Shown: positions 46,291 to 64,000 of the stretch, one piece after another
Layout of the letters: the number at the start of each line of letters is the position of its first letter
Numbering within the stretch: the first letter of the stretch is position 1
NCBI GenBank assembly: GCA_034231615.1
Contig: CM067298.1
Span: 49,264,787 to 49,328,786 of the forward strand
Direction: 5' to 3'
Origin: Meghimatium bilineatum
Lineage: Eukaryota > Mollusca > Gastropoda > Stylommatophora > Philomycidae
DNA: 64,000 nucleotides
Notes under the pieces: model-generated
What the model was told of the DNA's origin: nothing
What the model saw: the letters and a program-made list of their open reading frames with translations, nothing else
The model's database searches: none
Position numbers and translations under genes: made by a program

Positions 46291-46681
46291 AGACTTACGT
46301 AAAACACAGGTTTATATATCGTTTCAGTGGGACACGACAGACTATAGCTAAAACTAGTAGGTAATGATGGGCAATGATGAGCACACAAGAAATCATAAAA
46401 ATTACAATACACAAATCACAGTCAACGTTTCAACCAAAAGGTCTTTATCAAGACACTAACAAAACATCAAAAGACGAATTTAATGGAAATGAAAAAGTCT
46501 TTTGATGTTTTGTTTGTGTCTTGATAAAGACCTTTTGGTTGAAACGTTGACTGTGATTTGTGTATTGTAATTTTTATGATTTCTTGTGTGCTCATCATTG
46601 CACATCATTACCTACTAGTTTTAGCTATAGTCTGTCGTGTCCCACTGAAACGATATATAAACCTGTGTTTTACGTAAGTCT
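46291..46681. repeat. 390-bp inverted repeat of Penelope-like 3' sequence
   Basis: AGACTTACGTAAAACACAGG at 46291 is answered by CCTGTGTTTTACGTAAGTCT ending at 46681. The arms of about 185 bp are nearly complementary, with about 20 bp between them (axis near 46486). Each arm holds CTTGATAAAGACCTTTTGG, GAAACGTTGACTG and GTGTATTGTAATTTT, parallel to the PLE 3' region at 33520-33620. PLE copies often carry such inverted ends; assignment to PLE is inference from the shared block. Confidence 0.8.
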
Positions 46682-52154: not shown

Positions 52155-52176
52155 AAATAGGCTTATAAGTAGTATA

Positions 52177-52440
52177 TGATGTTCAAGATGATACGTAGAC
52201 GCCTCAATACGCCTCAATTACGCCTCCCAAGATGGCGGCCGACGCCTCACAACGCCTCAAGTACGCATCCAAGATGGCGGCCGACGCCTCACAACGCCTC
52301 AAGTATTACTTGAGGCGTTGTGAGGCGTCGACCGCCATCTTGGCGGCGTTGTGAGGCGTCGGCCGCCATCTTGGGAGGCGTAATTGAGGCGTATTGAGGC
52401 GTCTACGTATCATCTTGAACATCTAGGCATAAGGTTTTCC
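52177..52440. repeat. 260-bp palindrome rich in GACGCCTCA and AAGATGGCGGC motifs
   Basis: GATGTTCAAGATGATACGTA near 52179 is mirrored by TACGTATCATCTTGAACATC ending near 52424. Inside, GACGCCTCAATACGCCTCAA and AAGATGGCGGCCGACGCCTC recur in both orientations around TCAAGTATTACTTGA. AAGATGGCGGC is the YY1 core consensus (CCAT inverted). At least four such sites are present. Confidence 0.9.
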
Positions 52441-52481
52441 ACTGAAACTTTTCCGTTGTTTTTAGGTGCAAGGTGATACAT

Positions 52482-52997
52482 CAAGATCCAAGATGGCGGT
52501 CGACGCCTCACAACGCCTCAAGTATTACTTGAGGCGTTGTGAGGCGTCGACCGCCATCTTGGCGGCGTTGTGAGGCGTCGGCCGCCATCTTGGGAGGCGT
52601 AATTGAGGCGTATTGAGGCGTCTACGTATCATCTTGAACATCTAGGCATAAGGTTTTCCACTGAAACTTTTCCGTTGTTTTTAGGTGCAAGGTGATACAT
52701 CAAGGTCAATATCAGTGAACTTTGTAACAATTTTTTTTTAACCTGTGATTCACCTTTAGACTGATAATCCAAGATAAAGAAAATGACACATACAACAACT
52801 GAGCTTGTGTCGACCTCACCATTCTAATTATGAAACTTTTCCACACCAGAAATTTTGTCTCGTTCAGATTAGTGGACTATCGCACCCACATTTAAACCAT
52901 GCGTTGTATTGGTTTATTTATAAAACAGGCGTGTGTGGTGTCTAATGAATGGGCGTGAAATGGTGTTTCCATATAAATTAAACCAAGAAACAAGAAA
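52482..52997. repeat. Second unit of the satellite: half palindrome plus unique-type tail
   Basis: AAGATGGCGGTCGACGCCTC, TCAAGTATTACTTGAGGCG and the mirrored right half repeat 52260-52440. Then GCATAAGGTTTTCCACTGAA, GGTGCAAGGTGATACATCAA and a tail ending CCAAGAAACAAGAAAC. Confidence 0.9.
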
Positions 52998-53548
52998 CGT
53001 AATTGAGGCGTATTGAGGCGTCTACGTATCATCTTGAACATCTAGGCATAAGGTTTTCCACTGAAACTTTTCCGTTGTTTTTAGGTGCAAGGTGATACAT
53101 CAAGGTCAATATCAGTGAAATTTGTACCCTGTGATTCACCTTTAGCCTGATAACCCAAGATAACGAAAATGACACATACAACAGCTGACCTTGTGTCGAC
53201 CTCACCATTCTAATTATGAAACTTTTCCACACTTTTCCGTTGCTTTTAGGTGCAAGGTGATACATCAAGGTCAATATCAGTGAAATTTGTAACCTGTGAG
53301 TCACCTTTAGACTGCTAATCCAAGATAACGAAAATGACACATACAACAACTGAAGTTGTGTCGACCTCACCATTCTAATTATGAAACTTTTTCCACACCA
53401 GAAATTTTGTATCGTTCAGATTAGTGGACTATCGCACCCACATTTAAACCATGCGTTGTATTGGCTTATTTATAAAACATGTGTGTGTGGTGTCTAATGA
53501 ATGGGCGTGAAATGGTGTTTCCATATAAATTAAACCAAGAAACAAGAA
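52998..53548. repeat. Third unit of the satellite, with an internal duplication
   Basis: GTAATTGAGGCGTATTGAGG to AACCAAGAAACAAGAAAG repeats 52598-52997. A block of about 155 bp (TTTTCCGTTGxTTTTAGGTG to TAATTATGAAACTTTTCCAC) occurs twice inside it. Confidence 0.88.
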
Positions 53549-54453
53549 AGTTAACGCGGGCAACGAAATATACGAAAAACATGTTTAAATATAAGCGTAT
53601 GTAGCAATATTTATATAAATACACATTGAAAATAAAACTATCAAATCTATTTAACTAAAGCCGGTAACATAACGAAGGACTCGGGCCGGTAATACCAACA
53701 GCTGCAAACCATTAAAGCCCGCTGTATCTCAATTTAGTCCGTGGTCAGTGCATGGAAGCCCAGCGGGTGGTAATTAATCAGATCACGGACAGCCTGGTTC
53801 GCTCAGAAACTGGTGTGTGCGATTCGTTTTTTTAAACCGAAAGTTAAGATTATTCTCTCTTCTCTCTCTCTCTCTTTCTCTCTCTCCCGCTCTCTCTACA
53901 TATGTGGTACTTTATATATATATTGTTTATCCTATGGCATATAATGAAACCTAGTCCCCACTGAGAAAATTACCATACGCTACTGGTATAGATATCTATG
54001 TGAAGTATCTTTTGCAGATTGCTGCCCTATTTGTTAATCTGTAAGCTTTTCGGCTCTGTACAACCTTTTCAGTGTCTTTCATTATGTTTAGAAGATCTAA
54101 ATATCTTGCATCCACTGGTAGAACTATGTAACATACCAGGATATCCTGTTGGTCATGAAATAGTACAGACCTAATACCGTTATTTCCCGGTATGCCTGAT
54201 CGGCGTATAAAAGGGAAAACAATTTATTTTTTTACCGGTAAAGCTGGTGAAAACAAATGTGGAAAGGAAAAAATATTATAACATGATAACCTAGCTATCA
54301 AGGTTTTCTCCCACAAATACACACACACCGCTTTTATGTTGTTAGTGGCCCGTGTGTTATTATACACTTCAAGAGTCTTTAATATCCAATATAGAAAGAC
54401 ACTCATTTCCCACATGTTAGTTTTGTTAGAGGTCAAAACCCCAAAAGGGTGCT
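53549..54453. other. Flank between satellite and palindrome, (TC)n at 53857-53898
   Basis: Contains a polypyrimidine TCTCTCTCTCTC tract and no recognised gene. From about 54300 to 54440 it shares GTGTGTTATTATACACTTCA-type blocks with 54640-54720, i.e. a tandem repeat of about 290 bp that continues into the palindrome arm. The mirror of this stretch would lie past the window end. Confidence 0.5.
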
Positions 54454-54571
54454 GGGGCTCATTATGGCATATTCTAACATAGCTAATTCATAAACACAAA
54501 AGGTATGTGTAGGGTTTCTAATCAAATGTATTGAGGGCGTGCTCTATATAACTTATTACAACAAACAAAAT

Positions 54572-54629
54572 GCCCTTCCACTGTTTGTAAACCCAGCTGT
54601 GGCCCTTCCACTGTTTGTAAACCCATCGG
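54572..54629. repeat. 29-bp direct duplication in the arm (mirror at about 63825-63882)
   Basis: CCCTTCCACTGTTTGTAAAC occurs twice, separated by CCAGCTGTGG. It is present in both arms. Confidence 0.9.
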
Positions 54630-55165
54630 TGTGTTATTCTGTTAGTAGCATGGGTGTTATTATACGGTTCAACGGTTTTTAATAACCAATATAGAAATGG
54701 ACTTATTTACTATACCCATAATAGTTACCATACCTTTAAATAACACAGAGGAAAAGTGGTTTGGGTGCCTGAATTAACTTGACTAGCTTATGACCCCAAC
54801 CACGATGGGGTTTCTAATGATATCTTGGTGTGTGTATAACCCTTGTATAAGTCGGTTCTGGGCTCAGCACGTTTTACCTATAGAGATCGAAGGCTCCGTT
54901 CTTCTTGATCTGTGGATAACCTCGGAGTTCTGTACCTGCCGATAACTTGAACCTCTGTAGTTTATAGAAGGGTTCTTTGTAACAGGACAAAGCATATAGT
55001 ACAACGAAACAGACAATACACATATACAAATATAACAATGATTAAACCCGAACCAGAAAAACGTGACAGACATATTTTTTTCAGAGATATAAAACATATT
55101 TATTTATGATTCGCGTACATTTTCCAAAATAATTAAGAAAGAAAAAAAAAGGTTCATGTTATAAT

Positions 55166-55651
55166 TTACTGTCCATGAAAAGGAGTCCCAGTTGGTTGTA
55201 GTAATCGTCTCTTGGTTGGTTTCTTCTTTTTCTGTTCTGGTTGGTTGTGGGTTGCTACAGGCGTCTCAGGTACATATGTGGGTTCGTAGTTGGGTGTGAG
55301 ATACATTTCTAGATTACCAAAATACTGCTCTGTGGTTGTAGACATTTTGTTGGCTGTATTAGCAATTGTGTTTGAAGGTGGGGAGGTTGAATTGGGTTTT
55401 GTGCCAAAAACACCGCACACTCTATCAAATTCTTTCAGAATGACCTCTCGAAGGTCTACGAGATCTACAAAAGCTTGACGACTCATTGTGATGCCGGTTC
55501 TAGTTGGATACTTTATATTTGCATCACCATAGTAGCGCCGAACATGGATAAGTGGTCTCTTGAATGATGTTACGGCTACAGCATTAACACCATCACCTAA
55601 TGGTTTTATCATATCATTGGCTCTGGAATAATAGGTAGTTGAGGAACTCAT
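55166..55651 (-). CDS. Gene A (left arm), identical PC4-like protein
   Basis: Mirror of 62803-63288 with the same 161 residues. Its TATA is at 55725-55735 and its AATAAA at 55099-55104, both on the minus strand. Confidence 0.72.
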   Translation of the reverse strand: MSSSTTYYSRANDMIKPLGDGVNAVAVTSFKRPLIHVRRYYGDANIKYPTRTGITMSRQAFVDLVDLREVILKEFDRVCGVFGTKPNSTSPPSNTIANTANKMSTTTEQYFGNLEMYLTPNYEPTYVPETPVATHNQPEQKKKKPTKRRLLQPTGTPFHGQ

Positions 55652-55795
55652 ATTCCTAATTATTGAAATGACAGTACTTTTCTAACCTGGTAGTGCGTTG
55701 TGCTGTATTAGATAGTGAGAGTCTTATTTATATACAGGAGCACACACAACGCGGGGCGTGGGCACGTGCACGGTTGTCCGTGGTGATCTGATTGG

Positions 55796-56197
55796 TTACA
55801 TCTGGTACATGCCGCATAGTTGACCCCACGCCAGTATGACCTTTTTGGTGTTCTGCTTGGTCACAGCTGGTACATGACCCAAGGGTGACCCCACGCTGGT
55901 ATTAACATTGCAAATAGGGCAAAAGCGACCAGCCTTGATATATGATGATAATAAATGGCTTGGGAACGATGATCCCAACACATTATGTTTGGTATCTAGG
56001 TCACATATGGTGTACGCATGATCTTTGGTTGTCTTAGCCCTGCTGTTTGTATATACAAGGATAACATTTTTAGTCTTTATTTTATTATTTTCCCAATGTG
56101 TGACTGTGAAACGTGGAAATATAAGCGGCAGCGGCGCACCAAGCCCTTTTAACATTAATAGAGCAAGGAAAAATGGTGAGTTAGTCAACTTAATCAT
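55796..56197 (-). CDS. Gene C (left arm), identical copy
   Basis: Mirror of 62257-62658, with the same 133 residues and the same overlap with gene B of the left arm. Confidence 0.55.
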   Translation of the reverse strand: MIKLTNSPFFLALLMLKGLGAPLPLIFPRFTVTHWENNKIKTKNVILVYTNSRAKTTKDHAYTICDLDTKHNVLGSSFPSHLLSSYIKAGRFCPICNVNTSVGSPLGHVPAVTKQNTKKVILAWGQLCGMYQM

Positions 56198-57526
56198 TGG
56201 GCTGACTTAAAGCTTTTTTGAAATGATGAGGTCTGTCTAAAGTGTAAGCCTGACTATTATTTCTTCCCTGGTCGTAGTGATCTATGATCTTACGCCTATG
56301 GCTGCTATCAAGCACGGGTGAAATGACCGGCTCAAGCCCCTTGACCCGCGTTCGAAACCGTTCCCGGTCTAAGGCGTAATAACCCCTTGTACCATGATGA
56401 GCTTCAACCACAAAAATATAACTAGTTATCAATTTACCCCCTGTAGCAAAATGAACCTGTAGAGTAAACAAAAGGAATATAGATTAGCTCGGATTGTTAC
56501 AGTTATAGGTTATAGGTTACAGTACTTATAGGTTAGCACACTTAAGAAAAAAAAAAGTTTGCATTAGCTGTACGTGCATATTATTATACACTAGTTACTC
56601 CACCACGAATATAATCCTACCCTGTGTAGTGATATCATAGGAAGAAAAAGTACTACGACAAAATAATCTCTGTTCGGTAATTCTATTATTATTTTTTCAA
56701 AGGTTAGCTTAAACACAATCAACTAAACCCCGATTACCACCTTACAACACCAACCAATATATATGTATACATACACATAATACCTTTCTACGACCCTGTT
56801 TGCTTTCAGTTCCTGAGACAGCGTGACAACGGGCGATGGTAGTGGTAGGATAATCATGCTCCCATTTAGCATTAATCTGACTAAGTGATGGTAAACATGC
56901 TTCTAGACTATTTGTCCCTGACTCGCGGGCTAGCTTAATGGTTTTTGTCTCTGATGATGGGTCTGATACGGCTTCATTTCTGGGTTTAAAGAGCGTGGCT
57001 AGCGTTAAAGACGAATTAAAGACAGAGCAGCTTATCGGGGACATCGATATATCTTCATTGTCTGACCACCCATCACTGTCTTCATTACTACCAACGCCCT
57101 CAGTTGCCTCAGAAGCTGAACACCAAGAAAAAAGGCCCCCAAGTGGACATCTATCGATCTGCATTTTCACTGGCGACGTTGGTCGTATCGGTTTTTTTGT
57201 TGTTGTTGGGATTTAAAAGGCACTAATGATGGAGAAGCCACACCTACCAGCTGCCTACGGGTAATGTTAGGGCCTATAAGAGTGAAGTGTATTATAGGGG
57301 TTGTGTACTACCTTCAACATTAACCACTACCAGTAATAATCTGCCGAACTAGCTAAACTCACCCGCACCACATAAACAATAGCTAAACATATAGGGTAGC
57401 TTGTTATGGGGTAGTACCTGAGCGATACGTAGTGAAAATTTTATTAATGTGTAACCTATACATAAAGGATGAAAAAAGGCTAACCTTCGTCATTGTCTTA
57501 AACATGCGCATCTCTGGGAATGACAT
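56190..57526 (-). CDS. Gene B (left arm)
   Basis: Mirror of 60929-62264: exons 57485-57526 (optional), 56784-57164 and 56190-56456. It differs from the right-arm copy by two residues (Glu for Ala in the Ser/Ala-rich segment of exon 1, His for Leu before RRKIIDHYDQ). No stop or shift in either copy. Confidence 0.65.
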
Positions 57527-57739
57527 CTCAGCACGGGCTATAAATACAAAAGCATATGATTCTGATACTAACAAACGAGCAAACACCTAGTTTTATATAC
57601 GAACCAGCTACACCAATCGACTGTATTGCACTATTGAAGCGCAACCGAATAGGCAATACAGGTTTGGTACTGTGCACACACTCGGAGTAACCCATTCATC
57701 CCATTGGGTGATGTGTGTATATTTGTATTACCAACCATT

Positions 57740-57802
57740 TAAAAAAGCATACGTTATCGGCGCTTACTAATAGAAACTACCGGAACTTTGTCATTTTGAA
57801 GA
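57740..57802 (+). promoter_or_regulatory. Probable promoter of gene D (left arm)
   Basis: CATTTAAAAAAGCATACG, a weak TATA-like element, lies about 60 bp before the micro-exon ATG, and GTGTATATTTGTATTACC lies further up. Mirror at 60653-60715. Weaker than the other two. Confidence 0.4.
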
Positions 57803-58921
57803 ATGGCTTATGTAAGTAATGTTGTTAATATCTGAATAGGTTGTTTGTTATTCTAACAGGATTTTCGATCCTAGTCTTGTTTTTGTCTCTTCTTCAGACA
57901 TGCGTTAACGGGCACATTCTCTACCTTTTCTATGGTATTTTGATGTTAAATTTAATGTCTGACATGTGTGAAATTCTATAGGGTCTTGGTTGTTGGCCCG
58001 TTTTGGTAGTTGCCAGCATGTGGGCGTGGAAACAAGTTGCTGTAAATGTGAATACATTTGTGTAATTTTTGGTGTGTATATTTTGGATGAATACACTATC
58101 ATCCCGGTGATATATCGGGGTATTATTTATTACTATTGTTGTGCTCGTTTTTTATGTATATTGTTTGAGTTGTGTATGTATAGCCTGAATATGAGTTAGG
58201 GCTAACTATGTTTGGTATCTGCTTTGTAATTGGATTATTTACGCAGTCCATCTATTCTCCACAGACCAAGACGGCCACCAAAACCTACCTGTGTGTTCAA
58301 TGCTTGAAACCATTCAGTCGCCTTTACACACTGCAAAGACATACACAAGATCTTCACCTTAAAAAAAGACATAACTGTAATGTTTGTGTTAATGTTTACA
58401 CAGACGCTTCAACATTAAGACAGCACAGGCAGAAGTGTCATACACCCCAATTAGTAACAACGGAGGGGACTTTTAAACCTAGCGAGGGGCATCATAGTAA
58501 TTTAACACCAACCAAGAACATGATACTAGTTGATCCCCAGGTGGTCGACGCCTTGCTGTATAAAACAGTCTATAAACCACCTGATTCTTTAACTTATTCT
58601 ATGGGTGAGTTGGACCAAGAAATGCGGGCGGTTTTAGTTCGTGGTGATTTAACCAATCACGAAAAATCTAGACTATACCAAAAAGCATTGCAACAGTATT
58701 TGAATCGACTTAGTCAATACAAAAACACACCTATGAAGCTATTAGAGAGCACGCAGTGTTCGGTACCAAGTGCTTCAATACAGAAAGATGAAGAACCCAC
58801 TGAGAAAATTCCAGAGAAAGTCGAAGTGATGCCTAAGACGCCACGGTTTCAAAATAGGCGGGCATCTAAAAGAACAAAAAGTAAAACAAGGGACAAAAGT
58901 CTGATTTGGGATAAGTGGTAG
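57803..58921 (+). CDS. Gene D (left arm): two-finger C2H2 protein, proposed micro-exon plus main exon
   Basis: The 58208-58921 frame encodes two zinc fingers, CVQCLKPFSRLYTLQRH (C-x2-C-x12-H-x4-H) and CNVCVNVYTDASTLRQHRQK, at about residues 29-50 and 57-78. Then comes a helical block with DQEMRAVLVRGDLTNHEK and RLYQKALQQYLNRL, and a basic C-terminus (RRASKRTKSKTRDK) that looks like a nuclear signal, ending IWDKW. The residues before Ser at 58247 look like intron: an acceptor TTACGCAG ends at 58246 in phase 0, and ATGGCTTAT followed by a perfect GTAAGT donor lies at 57803-57811, also phase 0. Joined, they give about 227 residues; the 58208 start gives 237. AATAAA repeats follow at 59000. The helical block recalls proteins I associate with Maverick-type virus-like elements, but this is unverified. 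Function is unknown; nucleic-acid binding is likely. Confidence 0.75.
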
Positions 58922-58999
58922 AAAAAACTGTAGAAGGCAACGCACCATTGCACAACAAATTGTCGACTGTTCAAACAAATATGATACTTATATAACATT

Positions 59000-59022
59000 A
59001 ATAAATAAAATAAAATAATAAA
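59000..59022 (+). terminator. Polyadenylation signals of gene D (left arm)
   Basis: AATAAATAAAATAAAATAAT, overlapping AATAAA hexamers about 80 bp after the stop. Mirror at 59433-59455 for the right-arm copy. Confidence 0.75.
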
Positions 59023-59167
59023 ACCACAACGATGTTGTTGTATTTATCTGTATTTGTGTGTGTGTGACTATATGTAAAACAAGATTGCTCATAAACATAA
59101 AAAACTATGCCGGTTTCCCTCCTAGCACGGGATCCTGTGTAACACGGGGTCTTTCATCTTGGACCTA

Positions 59168-59287
59168 CACGGGCTCCCGTGCTACACTGGCCCGTGTAGC
59201 ACGGGGTCCCGTGTAACATGGGTTTTATCATCTTGGACCTACACGGGATCCCGTGTTACACGGGCTCGTGTAGCCCGGTATCCCATG
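59168..59287. repeat. Palindrome centre: GC-rich hairpin-forming repeats
   Basis: Built of CACGGGxTCCCGTG units, with ATCTTGGACCTACACGGG present at about 59157 and 59230 and inverted at about 59275. These are tandem repeats of about 73 bp. The symmetry decays here, and the very centre (about 59205-59250) is not symmetric. GC is far above the flank. Such nested short hairpins at a long axis could mark a replication origin or a resolved terminal hairpin; that is inference. Confidence 0.85.
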
Positions 59288-59533
59288 TAGGTCCAAGATG
59301 AAAGACCCCGTGTTACACGGGATCCCGTGCTAGGAGGGAAACCGGCATAGTTTTTTATGTTTATGAGCAATCTTGTTTTACATATAGTCACACACACACA
59401 AATACAGATAAATACAACAACATCGTTGTGGTTTTATTATTTTATTTTATTTATTAATGTTATATAAGTATCATATTTGTTTGAACAGTCGACAATTTGT
59501 TGTGCAATGGTGCGTTGCCTTCTACAGTTTTTT

Positions 59534-60652
59534 CTACCACTTATCCCAAATCAGACTTTTGTCCCTTGTTTTACTTTTTGTTCTTTTAGATGCCCGCCTA
59601 TTTTGAAACCGTGGCGTCTTAGGCATCACTTCGACTTTCTCTGGAATTTTCTCAGTGGGTTCTTCATCTTTCTGTATTGAAGCACTTGGTACCGAACACT
59701 GCGTGCTCTCTAATAGCTTCATAGGTGTGTTTTTGTATTGACTAAGTCGATTCAAATACTGTTGTAATGCTTTTTGGTATAGTCTAGATTTTTCGTGATT
59801 GGTTAAATCACCACGAACTAAAACCGCCCGCATTTCTTGGTCCAACTCACCCATAGAATAAGTTAAAGAATCAGGTGGTTTATAGACTGTTTTATACAGC
59901 AAGGCGTCGACCACCTGGGGATCAACTAGTATCATGTTCTTGGTTGGTGTTAAATTACTATGATGCCCCTCGCTAGGTTTAAAAGTCCCCTCCGTTGTTA
60001 CTAATTGGGGTGTATGACACTTCTGCCTGTGCTGTCTTAATGTTGAAGCGTCTGTGTAAACATTAACACAAACATTACAGTTATGTCTTTTTTTAAGGTG
60101 AAGATCTTGTGTATGTCTTTGCAGTGTGTAAAGGCGACTGAATGGTTTCAAGCATTGAACACACAGGTAGGTTTTGGTGGCCGTCTTGGTCTGTGGAGAA
60201 TAGATGGACTGCGTAAATAATCCAATTACAAAGCAGATACCAAACATAGTTAGCCCTAACTCATATTCAGGCTATACATACACAACTCAAACAATATACA
60301 TAAAAAACGAGCACAACAATAGTAATAAATAATACCCCGATATATCACCGGGATGATAGTGTATTCATCCAAAATATACACACCAAAAATTACACAAATG
60401 TATTCACATTTACAGCAACTTGTTTCCACGCCCACATGCTGGCAACTACCAAAACGGGCCAACAACCAAGACCCTATAGAATTTCACACATGTCAGACAT
60501 TAAATTTAACATCAAAATACCATAGAAAAGGTAGAGAATGTGCCCGTTAACGCATGTCTGAAGAAGAGACAAAAACAAGACTAGGATCGAAAATCCTGTT
60601 AGAATAACAAACAACCTATTCAGATATTAACAACATTACTTACATAAGCCAT
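59534..60652 (-). CDS. Gene D (right arm), identical copy
   Basis: Mirror of 57803-58921. Main exon 59534-60208 (acceptor after 60209) and proposed micro-exon 60644-60652. Without splicing the frame would run 59534-60247. The protein is the same as in the left arm, and AATAAA is mirrored at 59450-59455. Convergent with its left-arm twin: both copies transcribe toward the axis, 613 bp apart end to end. Confidence 0.75.
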
Positions 60653-60829
60653 TCTTCAAAATGACAAAGTTCCGGTAGTTTCTATTAGTAAGCGCCGATA
60701 ACGTATGCTTTTTTAAATGGTTGGTAATACAAATATACACACATCACCCAATGGGATGAATGGGTTACTCCGAGTGTGTGCACAGTACCAAACCTGTATT
60801 GCCTATTCGGTTGCGCTTCAATAGTGCAA

Positions 60830-60928
60830 TACAGTCGATTGGTGTAGCTGGTTCGTATATAAAACTAGGTGTTTGCTCGTTTGTTAGTATCAGAATCATA
60901 TGCTTTTGTATTTATAGCCCGTGCTGAG
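60830..60928 (+). promoter_or_regulatory. Promoter of gene B (right arm)
   Basis: CGATTGGTG (inverted CCAAT) is followed by GTATATAAAA at 60855-60864, 65 bp before ATG 60929. Mirror in the left arm at 57527-57625. With gene D's start about 200 bp away on the opposite strand this is a divergent promoter region. Confidence 0.65.
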
Positions 60929-62264
60929 ATGTCATTCCCAGAGATGCGCATGTTTAAGACAATGACGAAGGTTAGCCTTTTTTCATCCTTTATGTATAGG
61001 TTACACATTAATAAAATTTTCACTACGTATCGCTCAGGTACTACCCCATAACAAGCTACCCTATATGTTTAGCTATTGTTTATGTGGTGCGGGTGAGTTT
61101 AGCTAGTTCGGCAGATTATTACTGGTAGTGGTTAATGTTGAAGGTAGTACACAACCCCTATAATACACTTCACTCTTATAGGCCCTAACATTACCCGTAG
61201 GCAGCTGGTAGGTGTGGCTTCTCCATCATTAGTGCCTTTTAAATCCCAACAACAACAAAAAAACCGATACGACCAACGTCGCCAGTGAAAATGCAGATCG
61301 ATAGATGTCCACTTGGGGGCCTTTTTTCTTGGTGTTCAGCTTCTGAGGCAACTGCGGGCGTTGGTAGTAATGAAGACAGTGATGGGTGGTCAGACAATGA
61401 AGATATATCGATGTCCCCGATAAGCTGCTCTGTCTTTAATTCGTCTTTAACGCTAGCCACGCTCTTTAAACCCAGAAATGAAGCCGTATCAGACCCATCA
61501 TCAGAGACAAAAACCATTAAGCTAGCCCGCGAGTCAGGGACAAATAGTCTAGAAGCATGTTTACCATCACTTAGTCAGATTAATGCTAAATGGGAGCATG
61601 ATTATCCTACCACTACCATCGCCCGTTGTCACGCTGTCTCAGGAACTGAAAGCAAACAGGGTCGTAGAAAGGTATTATGTGTATGTATACATATATATTG
61701 GTTGGTGTTGTAAGGTGGTAATCGGGGTTTAGTTGATTGTGTTTAAGCTAACCTTTGAAAAAATAATAATAGCATTACCGAACAGAGATTATTTTGTCGT
61801 GGTACTTTTTCTTCCTATGATATCACTACACAGGGTAGGATTATATTCGTGGTGGAGTAACTAGTGTATAATAATATGCACGTACAGCTAATGCACACTT
61901 TTTTTTTCTTAAGTGTGCTAACCTATAAGTACTGTAACCTATAACCTATAACTGTAACAATCCGAGCTAATCTATATTCCTTTTGTTTACTCTACAGGTT
62001 CATTTTGCTACAGGGGGTAAATTGATAACTAGTTATATTTTTGTGGTTGAAGCTCATCATGGTACAAGGGGTTATTACGCCTTAGACCGGGAACGGTTTC
62101 GAACGCGGGTCAAGGGGCTTGAGCCGGTCATTTCACCCGTGCTTGATAGCAGCCTTAGGCGTAAGATCATAGATCACTACGACCAGGGAAGAAATAATAG
62201 TCAGGCTTACACTTTAGACAGACCTCATCATTTCAAAAAAGCTTTAAGTCAGCCCAATGATTAA
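60929..62264 (+). CDS. Gene B (right arm): acidic protein, two or three exons
   Basis: Main exons are 61291-61671 and 61998-62264, donor AAG/GTATTA, acceptor TCTACAG, phase 0, giving 215 residues from ATG 61291. An alternative first exon at 60929-60970 (MSFPEMRMFKTMTK, donor GTTAGC) joins in phase to an acceptor CAG ending at 61296, bypassing that ATG, and lies 65 bp after a TATA box; it would give 227 residues. The N-terminal half is acidic and Ser-rich (EDSDGWSDNEDISMSP). The C-terminal exon has VHFATGGKLITSYIFVVEAH and YYALDRERFRTRVKGLEP. I recognise no family. An open antisense frame over exon 1 (61239-61517) is judged a shadow. Confidence 0.65.
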
Positions 62265-62658
62265 GTTGACTAACTCACCATTTTTCCTTGCTCTATTAAT
62301 GTTAAAAGGGCTTGGTGCGCCGCTGCCGCTTATATTTCCACGTTTCACAGTCACACATTGGGAAAATAATAAAATAAAGACTAAAAATGTTATCCTTGTA
62401 TATACAAACAGCAGGGCTAAGACAACCAAAGATCATGCGTACACCATATGTGACCTAGATACCAAACATAATGTGTTGGGATCATCGTTCCCAAGCCATT
62501 TATTATCATCATATATCAAGGCTGGTCGCTTTTGCCCTATTTGCAATGTTAATACCAGCGTGGGGTCACCCTTGGGTCATGTACCAGCTGTGACCAAGCA
62601 GAACACCAAAAAGGTCATACTGGCGTGGGGTCAACTATGCGGCATGTACCAGATGTAA
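62257..62658 (+). CDS. Gene C (right arm): 133-residue protein overlapping gene B
   Basis: The start ATGATTAAG shares its first eight bases with gene B's terminal AATGATTAA, an overlap of 8 nt in another frame. The N-terminus is hydrophobic (FFLALLMLKGLGAPLPLIF), then FTVTHWENNKIKTKNVILVY, a single CPIC pair at about residue 93 and a C-terminal VILAWGQLCGMYQM. Two cysteine-x2-cysteine residues alone do not define a finger. No family recognised. The overlap suggests translation from the same transcript by reinitiation or leaky scanning, or an extra splice form; both are inference. A CCAAT box of gene A's promoter begins at its last bases. Confidence 0.55.
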   Translation: MIKLTNSPFFLALLMLKGLGAPLPLIFPRFTVTHWENNKIKTKNVILVYTNSRAKTTKDHAYTICDLDTKHNVLGSSFPSHLLSSYIKAGRFCPICNVNTSVGSPLGHVPAVTKQNTKKVILAWGQLCGMYQM

Positions 62659-62802
62659 CCAATCAGATCACCACGGACAACCGTGCACGTGCCCACGCCC
62701 CGCGTTGTGTGTGCTCCTGTATATAAATAAGACTCTCACTATCTAATACAGCACAACGCACTACCAGGTTAGAAAAGTACTGTCATTTCAATAATTAGGA
62801 AT
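62655..62802 (+). promoter_or_regulatory. Promoter of gene A (right arm)
   Basis: AACCAATCAG (CCAAT at 62659-62663), then GTGCACGTGCCCACGCCCCG (an E-box CACGTG and a GC-rich block), then TATATAAATA at about 62720-62730, all 70-145 bp before ATG. This is a textbook RNA polymerase II layout. Mirror in the left arm at 55652-55799. Confidence 0.75.
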
Positions 62803-63288
62803 ATGAGTTCCTCAACTACCTATTATTCCAGAGCCAATGATATGATAAAACCATTAGGTGATGGTGTTAATGCTGTAGCCGTAACATCATTCAAGAGACC
62901 ACTTATCCATGTTCGGCGCTACTATGGTGATGCAAATATAAAGTATCCAACTAGAACCGGCATCACAATGAGTCGTCAAGCTTTTGTAGATCTCGTAGAC
63001 CTTCGAGAGGTCATTCTGAAAGAATTTGATAGAGTGTGCGGTGTTTTTGGCACAAAACCCAATTCAACCTCCCCACCTTCAAACACAATTGCTAATACAG
63101 CCAACAAAATGTCTACAACCACAGAGCAGTATTTTGGTAATCTAGAAATGTATCTCACACCCAACTACGAACCCACATATGTACCTGAGACGCCTGTAGC
63201 AACCCACAACCAACCAGAACAGAAAAAGAAGAAACCAACCAAGAGACGATTACTACAACCAACTGGGACTCCTTTTCATGGACAGTAA
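62803..63288 (+). CDS. Gene A (right arm): PC4-like ssDNA-binding protein
   Basis: A single-exon frame of 161 residues from ATG 62803, preceded by a clean promoter (CCAAT 62659, TATATAAATA about 62720). Residues about 30-75 (RPLIHVRRYYGD, KYPTRTGITMSRQAFVDLVD) have the layout of the PC4/Sub1 fold: a beta strand with IxVRxYY, a GI-x-M/L-s turn, then a helix. PC4 proteins bind single-stranded or unwound DNA as dimers in transcription and replication. The tail is Thr/Pro-rich and ends in a basic stretch (EQKKKKPTKRRLLQP), a probable nuclear signal. AATAAA lies at 63350. The PC4 call rests on pattern recognition only. In a virus-like element it could serve late transcription or genome replication. 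Confidence 0.72.
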   Translation: MSSSTTYYSRANDMIKPLGDGVNAVAVTSFKRPLIHVRRYYGDANIKYPTRTGITMSRQAFVDLVDLREVILKEFDRVCGVFGTKPNSTSPPSNTIANTANKMSTTTEQYFGNLEMYLTPNYEPTYVPETPVATHNQPEQKKKKPTKRRLLQPTGTPFHGQ

Positions 63289-63349
63289 ATTATAACATGA
63301 ACCTTTTTTTTTCTTTCTTAATTATTTTGGAAAATGTACGCGAATCATA

Positions 63350-63355
63350 AATAAA
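63350..63355 (+). terminator. Polyadenylation signal of gene A (right arm)
   Basis: AATAAA in CATAAATAAATATG, about 60 bp after the stop. Mirror at 55099-55104 for the left-arm copy. Confidence 0.7.
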
Positions 63356-64000
63356 TATGTTTTATATCTCTGAAAAAAATATGTCTGTCACGTTTTTCTG
63401 GTTCGGGTTTAATCATTGTTATATTTGTATATGTGTATTGTCTGTTTCGTTGTACTATATGCTTTGTCCTGTTACAAAGAACCCTTCTATAAACTACAGA
63501 GGTTCAAGTTATCGGCAGGTACAGAACTCCGAGGTTATCCACAGATCAAGAAGAACGGAGCCTTCGATCTCTATAGGTAAAACGTGCTGAGCCCAGAACC
63601 GACTTATACAAGGGTTATACACACACCAAGATATCATTAGAAACCCCATCGTGGTTGGGGTCATAAGCTAGTCAAGTTAATTCAGGCACCCAAACCACTT
63701 TTCCTCTGTGTTATTTAAGGTATGGTAACTATTATGGGTATAGTAAATAAGTCCATTTCTATATTGGTTATTAAAAACCGTTGAACTGTATAATAACACC
63801 CATGCTACTAACAGAATAACACACCGATGGGTTTACAAACAGTGGAAGGGCCACAGCTGGGTTTACAAACAGTGGAAGGGCATTTTGTTTGTTGTAATAA
63901 GTTATATAGAGCACGCCCTCAATACATTTGATTAGAAACCATACACATACCTTTTGTGTTTATGAATTAGCTATGTTAGAATATGCCATAATGAGCCCCA

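Follow-up and report, generated by a model that had tools for sequence, protein, structure and literature searches.

The 64-kb window analysed here, by which we mean the whole stretch of Meghimatium bilineatum DNA at C1:49264787-49328786 (C labels denote contigs and L labels stretches drawn from the genome), contains most of a palindromic element that is probably a non-autonomous, virus-like relative of the Mavericks/Polintons. Its two inverted arms, 54453-59215 and 59240-64000, are 99.6% identical over a 4,763-column alignment and differ outside the centre (54453-59119) by only eight substitutions and two one-base indels, which bears out a sequence-only reading of this DNA that had described two nearly identical inverted arms of at least 4.7 kb. 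The outer limit given there, 54454, is merely the mirror image of the window's end. Comparison of the flanks of several copies places the true limits at window position 52168 on the left and at base 1666 of L009, the stretch directly right of the window, on the right, so that the element is 13,499 bp long and ends 1,666 bases past the window edge. The inverted repeat spans this entire length, with the axis splitting it into 7,060 bp on the left and 6,439 bp on the right. The arrangement of terminal inverted repeats around a unique core that characterizes Mavericks and Polintons is thus absent, as only the central loop is unpaired; the suggestion of a transposon with very long terminal repeats, also made in the sequence-only reading, came close.

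The features in the window are as follows, with strand given for genes and reading frames.

52162..52167: left-hand copy of the 6-bp target site duplication (CTTATA), whose right-hand copy is beyond the window, adjoining L009:1666
52168..64000: palindromic element, probably Maverick-type, the portion within the window (11,833 of 13,499 bp)
52168..53916: subterminal repeat array, variable among subfamilies, unlike the conserved interior of the arms
52178..52423: outer-end hairpin, 10 bases in from the terminus, with 79-bp arms and inner inverted repeats
54453..59215: left-arm portion with its mirror inside the window
55166..55651, minus: gene for a PC4-like single-stranded DNA-binding protein, left arm, 161 amino acids (aa)
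55796..56197, minus: 133-aa open reading frame (ORF), left arm, coding status doubtful
58208..58921, plus: gene for a two-finger C2H2 protein, left arm, 237 aa, directed toward the axis
59110..59346: central hairpin, with an imperfect stem and an asymmetric loop (59216-59239)
59240..64000: right-arm portion inside the window
59534..60247, minus: two-finger C2H2 gene, right arm, directed toward the axis
60353-60550, mirror 57905-58102: 65-aa ORF, one per arm, between the C2H2 gene and the spliced gene, no Pfam match
61291..61671, plus: exon of a putative spliced gene, right arm; left-arm mirror at about 56784-57164, minus strand
61998..62258, plus: following exon of the putative spliced gene, right arm; mirror at about 56194-56456, minus strand
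62257..62658, plus: 133-aa ORF, right arm, coding status doubtful
62803..63288, plus: PC4-like gene, right arm, with TATATAAATA near 62720 (noticed by eye)

Outside the element the window is repeat-rich, with reverse-transcriptase-like ORFs identified by eye, and searches of the window with Rfam at gathering thresholds and for tRNAs both came back empty. A separate, short, near-perfect inverted repeat at 46291-46681 (391 bp, 96%) is unrelated to the element.

Genes and reading frames of the arms

The sequence-only reading assigned four compact genes to each arm, and its PC4-like and C2H2 calls stand, with Pfam matches that are significant although they fall below the family cut-offs: E 1.8e-4 and 21.4 bits (cut-off 25) for the PC4-like ORF, and E 1.1e-4 and 22.9 (cut-off 25.2) against zf-C2H2. 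Splice signals and an open downstream exon make a spliced gene, with its intron at 61672-61997, plausible. The TATA, CCAAT and AATAAA signals named in that reading are at most candidates picked out by eye. The 133-aa ORF did not fare as well, showing no sign of constraint in the ratio of nonsynonymous to synonymous differences (pN/pS) against an older copy of the element, L043 (1.30 and 1.48 in the two arms). In the same comparison the two arms give 0.56 and 0.75 for the PC4-like gene, 0.48 and 0.63 for the downstream exon, and 0.80 and 1.35 for the upstream exon, and the Nei-Gojobori pN/pS of the C2H2 gene between subfamilies is 0.63-0.88. Evidence of selection on the arm genes is weak at best, and decay after insertion is mixed into it.

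Few relatives of these proteins turned up. No viral-contig relative was found for the PC4-like, C2H2, 133-aa or downstream-exon queries, and a further search outside the genome with the PC4-like protein returned none of eight candidates at E <= 0.001. The C-terminal part of the C2H2 protein has a single outside relative, an unnamed 205-aa protein with 68% identity on a 1,037-base ENA contig, and for the frames other than PC4-like and C2H2 no known relatives were found. No credible relative of the PC4-like or the 133-aa protein came out of PDB searches, and an AlphaFold model of the PC4-like protein alone was poor (mean predicted local distance difference test score 42.6), which neither supports nor opposes its PC4 identity. 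The sequence-only reading had proposed looking beyond the window for polymerase, integrase, packaging ATPase, protease and capsid genes; none of these was recognized in five ORFs or exons of the arms with Pfam and PHROGs, and a polymerase-like gene lies instead in other elements, described below, which share the end motif but are not palindromic.

Dispersed copies, their termini and the history of the arms

The palindrome is one of many. With a probe from the centre, for which 40 of 409 candidate loci were scored, a plus arm followed by a minus arm meets at the axis in 36 of the 40, on 19 contigs, and since these loci share their axis the palindrome is neither a chance product nor an assembly fold-back. 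Very high arm identity at a single locus is the usual sign of an assembly or library artefact, but the dozens of dispersed copies with a common axis, their different subfamilies and their differing target duplications refute that explanation, which we regard as virtually excluded. A second probe, the PC4-like protein, gave 66 minus/plus pairs on 23 contigs and 18 unpaired matches among the 150 of 584 candidates that were scored, with a spacing of 5.7-7.75 kb in 63 of the 66 pairs. Partners of the unpaired matches may be among the unscored candidates, and at least one (on C16) has lost most of one arm. These 150 matches fall into two groups by identity to the window, 71 at 96% or more and 79 at 83-86%. 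In the latter subfamily 78 of the 79 contain at least one stop, and the stops are mostly identical between the members of a pair, implying that an already disabled gene was amplified within both arms. The three subfamilies that we sampled differ from each other at 26-46 of about 970 sites.

The termini point to the Mavericks. In the eight copies fetched on both sides, all 16 ends open with AGTAGT, so that the elements read AGTAGT...ACTACT, and every copy lies between perfect 6-bp target duplications, which read CTTATA for the window copy and GGTCTC, TGAGGG, ATCGGT, ACGGAT, TACATT, ATCGTC and CACATG for the others. Both the end motif and the duplication length are those of Mavericks/Polintons; in vertebrate Mavericks (AGT)2//(ACT)2 is the commonest end motif and the 6-bp duplications are perfect (PMC8097293). 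The virus-like character proposed in the sequence-only reading gains support from these ends. Its preferred form, a junction within a concatemer formed as a linear virus with inverted ends replicates, does not: the head-to-head geometry and hairpin-rich centre would suit such a junction, but both arms end at Maverick-type termini with a 6-bp duplication, true termini of this kind are found in 8/8 copies, and the closed palindrome recurs at dozens of sites. That reading had itself held that arms ending just outside the window would tell against it, and the right arm does end so, 1,666 bases beyond; a concatemer origin is now very improbable.

The two arms of a copy appear to have been made identical before insertion, and the halves to have been remade together with each spread. 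Within a copy (the window copy and 14 others) the arms differ at zero to two positions per 963-976 sites. Of 28 arms, 26 have an intact, full-length C2H2 frame; the other two belong to a single copy, L038, and carry an identical early stop. The old copy L043, on C12, shows what follows: compared with the window it has 171 differences common to both arms, 82 and 89 that are found in one arm only, and seven sites at which all differ. This pattern indicates, for the one old copy examined, that the arms were alike at insertion and have since decayed independently, which argues against conversion within the chromosome. The element could otherwise be viewed as an ordinary transposon with long terminal inverted repeats whose arms are kept alike by chromosomal gene conversion, a process known to keep palindrome arms alike elsewhere. 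The freely diverged arms of L043, with their 82 + 89 private changes, largely refute this, again on the strength of that one copy, and identical copies at many loci already have matching arms; we therefore consider it improbable.

Elements that share the end motif

A pattern built on the termini, AGTAGTTATATANNNATGA, matches the genome 121 times forward and 111 times in reverse; the reversed control matches once in each direction. From about 100 listed places of this pattern we compiled 45 plus/minus end pairs. The 20 pairs that were typed comprise five palindromes already found and 15 that each enclose one match to L049, a polymerase-like fragment, the open frames reaching 1,447 codons. Two of the 15 polymerase-bearing elements were sampled in 450-500-base pieces, and a midpoint inverted repeat was absent from both. 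In one (C1:20626410-20643015), the 3' half of a PC4 homologue (DNA identity about 70%) lies close to the midpoint, and a polymerase exonuclease-like ORF is also present; a further ORF, with no database match, resembles the packaging ATPases of Mavericks. In the other (C1:7877008-7891991), the midpoint is occupied by sequence that flanks a PC4 homologue downstream. The palindromes and these elements also meet directly: in a copy on C5 (L021:635-2573) a palindrome arm is broken at the equivalent of window position 54888 and joined to a polymerase 5' region, a chimera of a palindrome and a polymerase-bearing element. The same stretch has a two-finger C2H2 ORF upstream of the polymerase-like gene, with a finger pattern resembling that of the palindrome's C2H2 protein.

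Other residents of the genome have similar ends or genes. End-motif pairs only 5.7-7.9 kb apart probably mark shorter elements with these ends (C1:3676136-3684016, C3:11219326-11225032, C7:21114965-21120949 and C8:57775400-57782086). PF03175 polymerase matches mark a distinct set of elements, one of which, in its 9.9-kb piece L045 (C24:19398600-19408500), has no sequence in common with the palindrome; L045 lies next to such a polymerase, is Maverick-like in its own right and contains numerous compact frames rich in AT.

A possible second palindromic lineage, recognized from coordinates only, seems to carry the polymerase in both of its arms. Of the 318 candidates for a polymerase-like probe, 150 were scored, and the 57 matches at 86% identity or more, the 56 at 60-85% and the 37 below 60% contain one, one and 13 opposite-strand pairs, respectively. 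The members of these 13 pairs lie 3.2-6.9 kb apart (for example C11:47802341/47808585, C12:11317150/11323391 and C14:7782853/7789101), and in seven pairs frames of at least 1,449 codons are open in both members. Two of the 13, on C7, are inside a repeated cluster and are perhaps not simple palindromes. Very tentatively, one could imagine a Maverick branch with a palindromic lifestyle, in which a one-ended hairpin genome of 5-7 kb exists as complementing PC4/C2H2 and polymerase replicons, a protein-primed lineage turned both multipartite and fold-back; we think this possible but doubtful.

A hairpin route of replication and its parallels

A very long inverted repeat arising through replication, as the sequence-only reading had supposed, is in our judgement the best explanation of the element. 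The ends, the target duplications, the copy number, the joint evolution of the arms, their independent decay and the resident helper-like elements together suggest a non-autonomous Maverick-type element, rather than a complete Maverick, as no polymerase or integrase was recognized in the arms. We consider it likely that such an element, inverted repeat over its whole length, is copied by a helper through a hairpin intermediate. The integrase and protein-primed polymerase of ordinary elements would act in trans on the palindrome's ends. The displaced single strand, being self-complementary over its full length, would then fold on itself as a hairpin duplex some 6.7 kb long, with the central hairpin closing one end and a normal Maverick terminus left open at the other, and the PC4-like protein may bind the single strand. 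Synthesis from the open end round the loop, or mismatch repair inside the hairpin, could rebuild a palindrome with matching arms, which would then integrate in full. The element would thus behave like a defective-interfering or satellite genome that retains a few genes.

The main rival is self-priming by a rolling hairpin, in which the genome would be linear and 6.7 kb long, with hairpins at both ends like that of a parvovirus, and what is integrated would be its replicative dimer, self-primed at the central hairpin. Strong DNA folds are predicted at both places where such a replicon would have its hairpin telomeres, at the centre (59110-59346; -120.6 kcal/mol, z -23.9) and at the outer end (-158.1 kcal/mol, z -30.7), each equalled by none of 200 shuffles. 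The central hairpin is alignable and conserved in 13 sequences, its anchors being missing from five of the 18 tried, and near-perfect arms around an imperfect, telomere-like centre are the expected trace of self-priming, so that rolling-hairpin replication accounts better for the centre. However, Pfam and PHROGs, each applied to five ORFs or exons, recognized no Rep or NS1-like nickase in the arms, the element has Maverick-type termini and duplications, and its outer hairpin does not include the 10 terminal bases. We regard this rival as unlikely, though less so than gene conversion.

Several observations weigh against helper-driven copying of a Maverick-type palindrome. The central stem is imperfect throughout the copies compared, and since it stays so, whatever process matches the arms spares the last 100 bp. 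The difference in length between left and right is located in the outer repeat array, and one PC4 pair, at C25:30469521 and 30477150 (98% and 85% identical to the window, respectively), perhaps combines arms from different subfamilies, something that a strict renewal of one arm from the other would not predict. As for the helpers, the polymerase call comes through PHROG matches of L049 relatives (of 21 rows, seven read 'DNA polymerase exonuclease subunit', best 1.2e-5, and four 'DNA polymerase'). Fragment L049 itself gave nothing useful with Pfam or PDB; a search of viral contigs with it found no relative, and it matched 70 unnamed proteins. No integrase was identified in the helper-like elements, though no search aimed at integrase was made, and by-eye comparison showed that the 12 listed PF03175 polymerase loci overlap none of the 45 end pairs. 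Finally, we infer the hairpin step, no replication intermediate having been seen.

If correct, the helper-copied hairpin would represent a naturally occurring and heritable fold-back version of a virus-like element with protein-primed replication, and a candidate satellite living on Mavericks in an animal-type genome. The way in which Mavericks replicate has so far been deduced from gene content. With dozens of dated insertions that each preserve a comparison of one arm with the other, a hairpin intermediate can be tested on sequence alone, and since the arms match at insertion and then drift apart, each copy contains a built-in clock. Searches of an open-licence library showed, in the titles and abstract openings listed, no report of a Maverick that is palindromic over its whole length.

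Known Mavericks have terminal repeats that enclose a unique core. Our palindrome resembles them in its AGTAGT...ACTACT ends, its 6-bp duplications and the presence in the genome of elements that combine this motif with a polymerase-like gene; it differs in being inverted repeat throughout and in having no recognizable polymerase, integrase, ATPase, protease or capsid gene, where eight ORFs are listed for Mavericks (PMC8097293). With the replicative dimers of parvoviruses and adeno-associated virus it shares head-to-head arms joined at a hairpin, whereas it has no nickase that we could find and has Maverick-type ends with target duplications. The bidnaviruses have a Polinton-derived protein-primed polymerase and terminal repeats that do not form hairpins (PMC4061559), on segments of 6.0 and 6.5 kb (PMC3036147). 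Segment size, the Polinton-derived polymerase and terminal repeats are points of likeness, but bidnaviruses are not integrated palindromes, and no capsid gene was recognized in ours. The defective-interfering, snapback genomes of the adenovirus type may offer a further parallel, as the palindrome too would be a helper-dependent fold-back derivative; unlike them, it is inherited through the germline in many copies and several subfamilies, and has retained genes.

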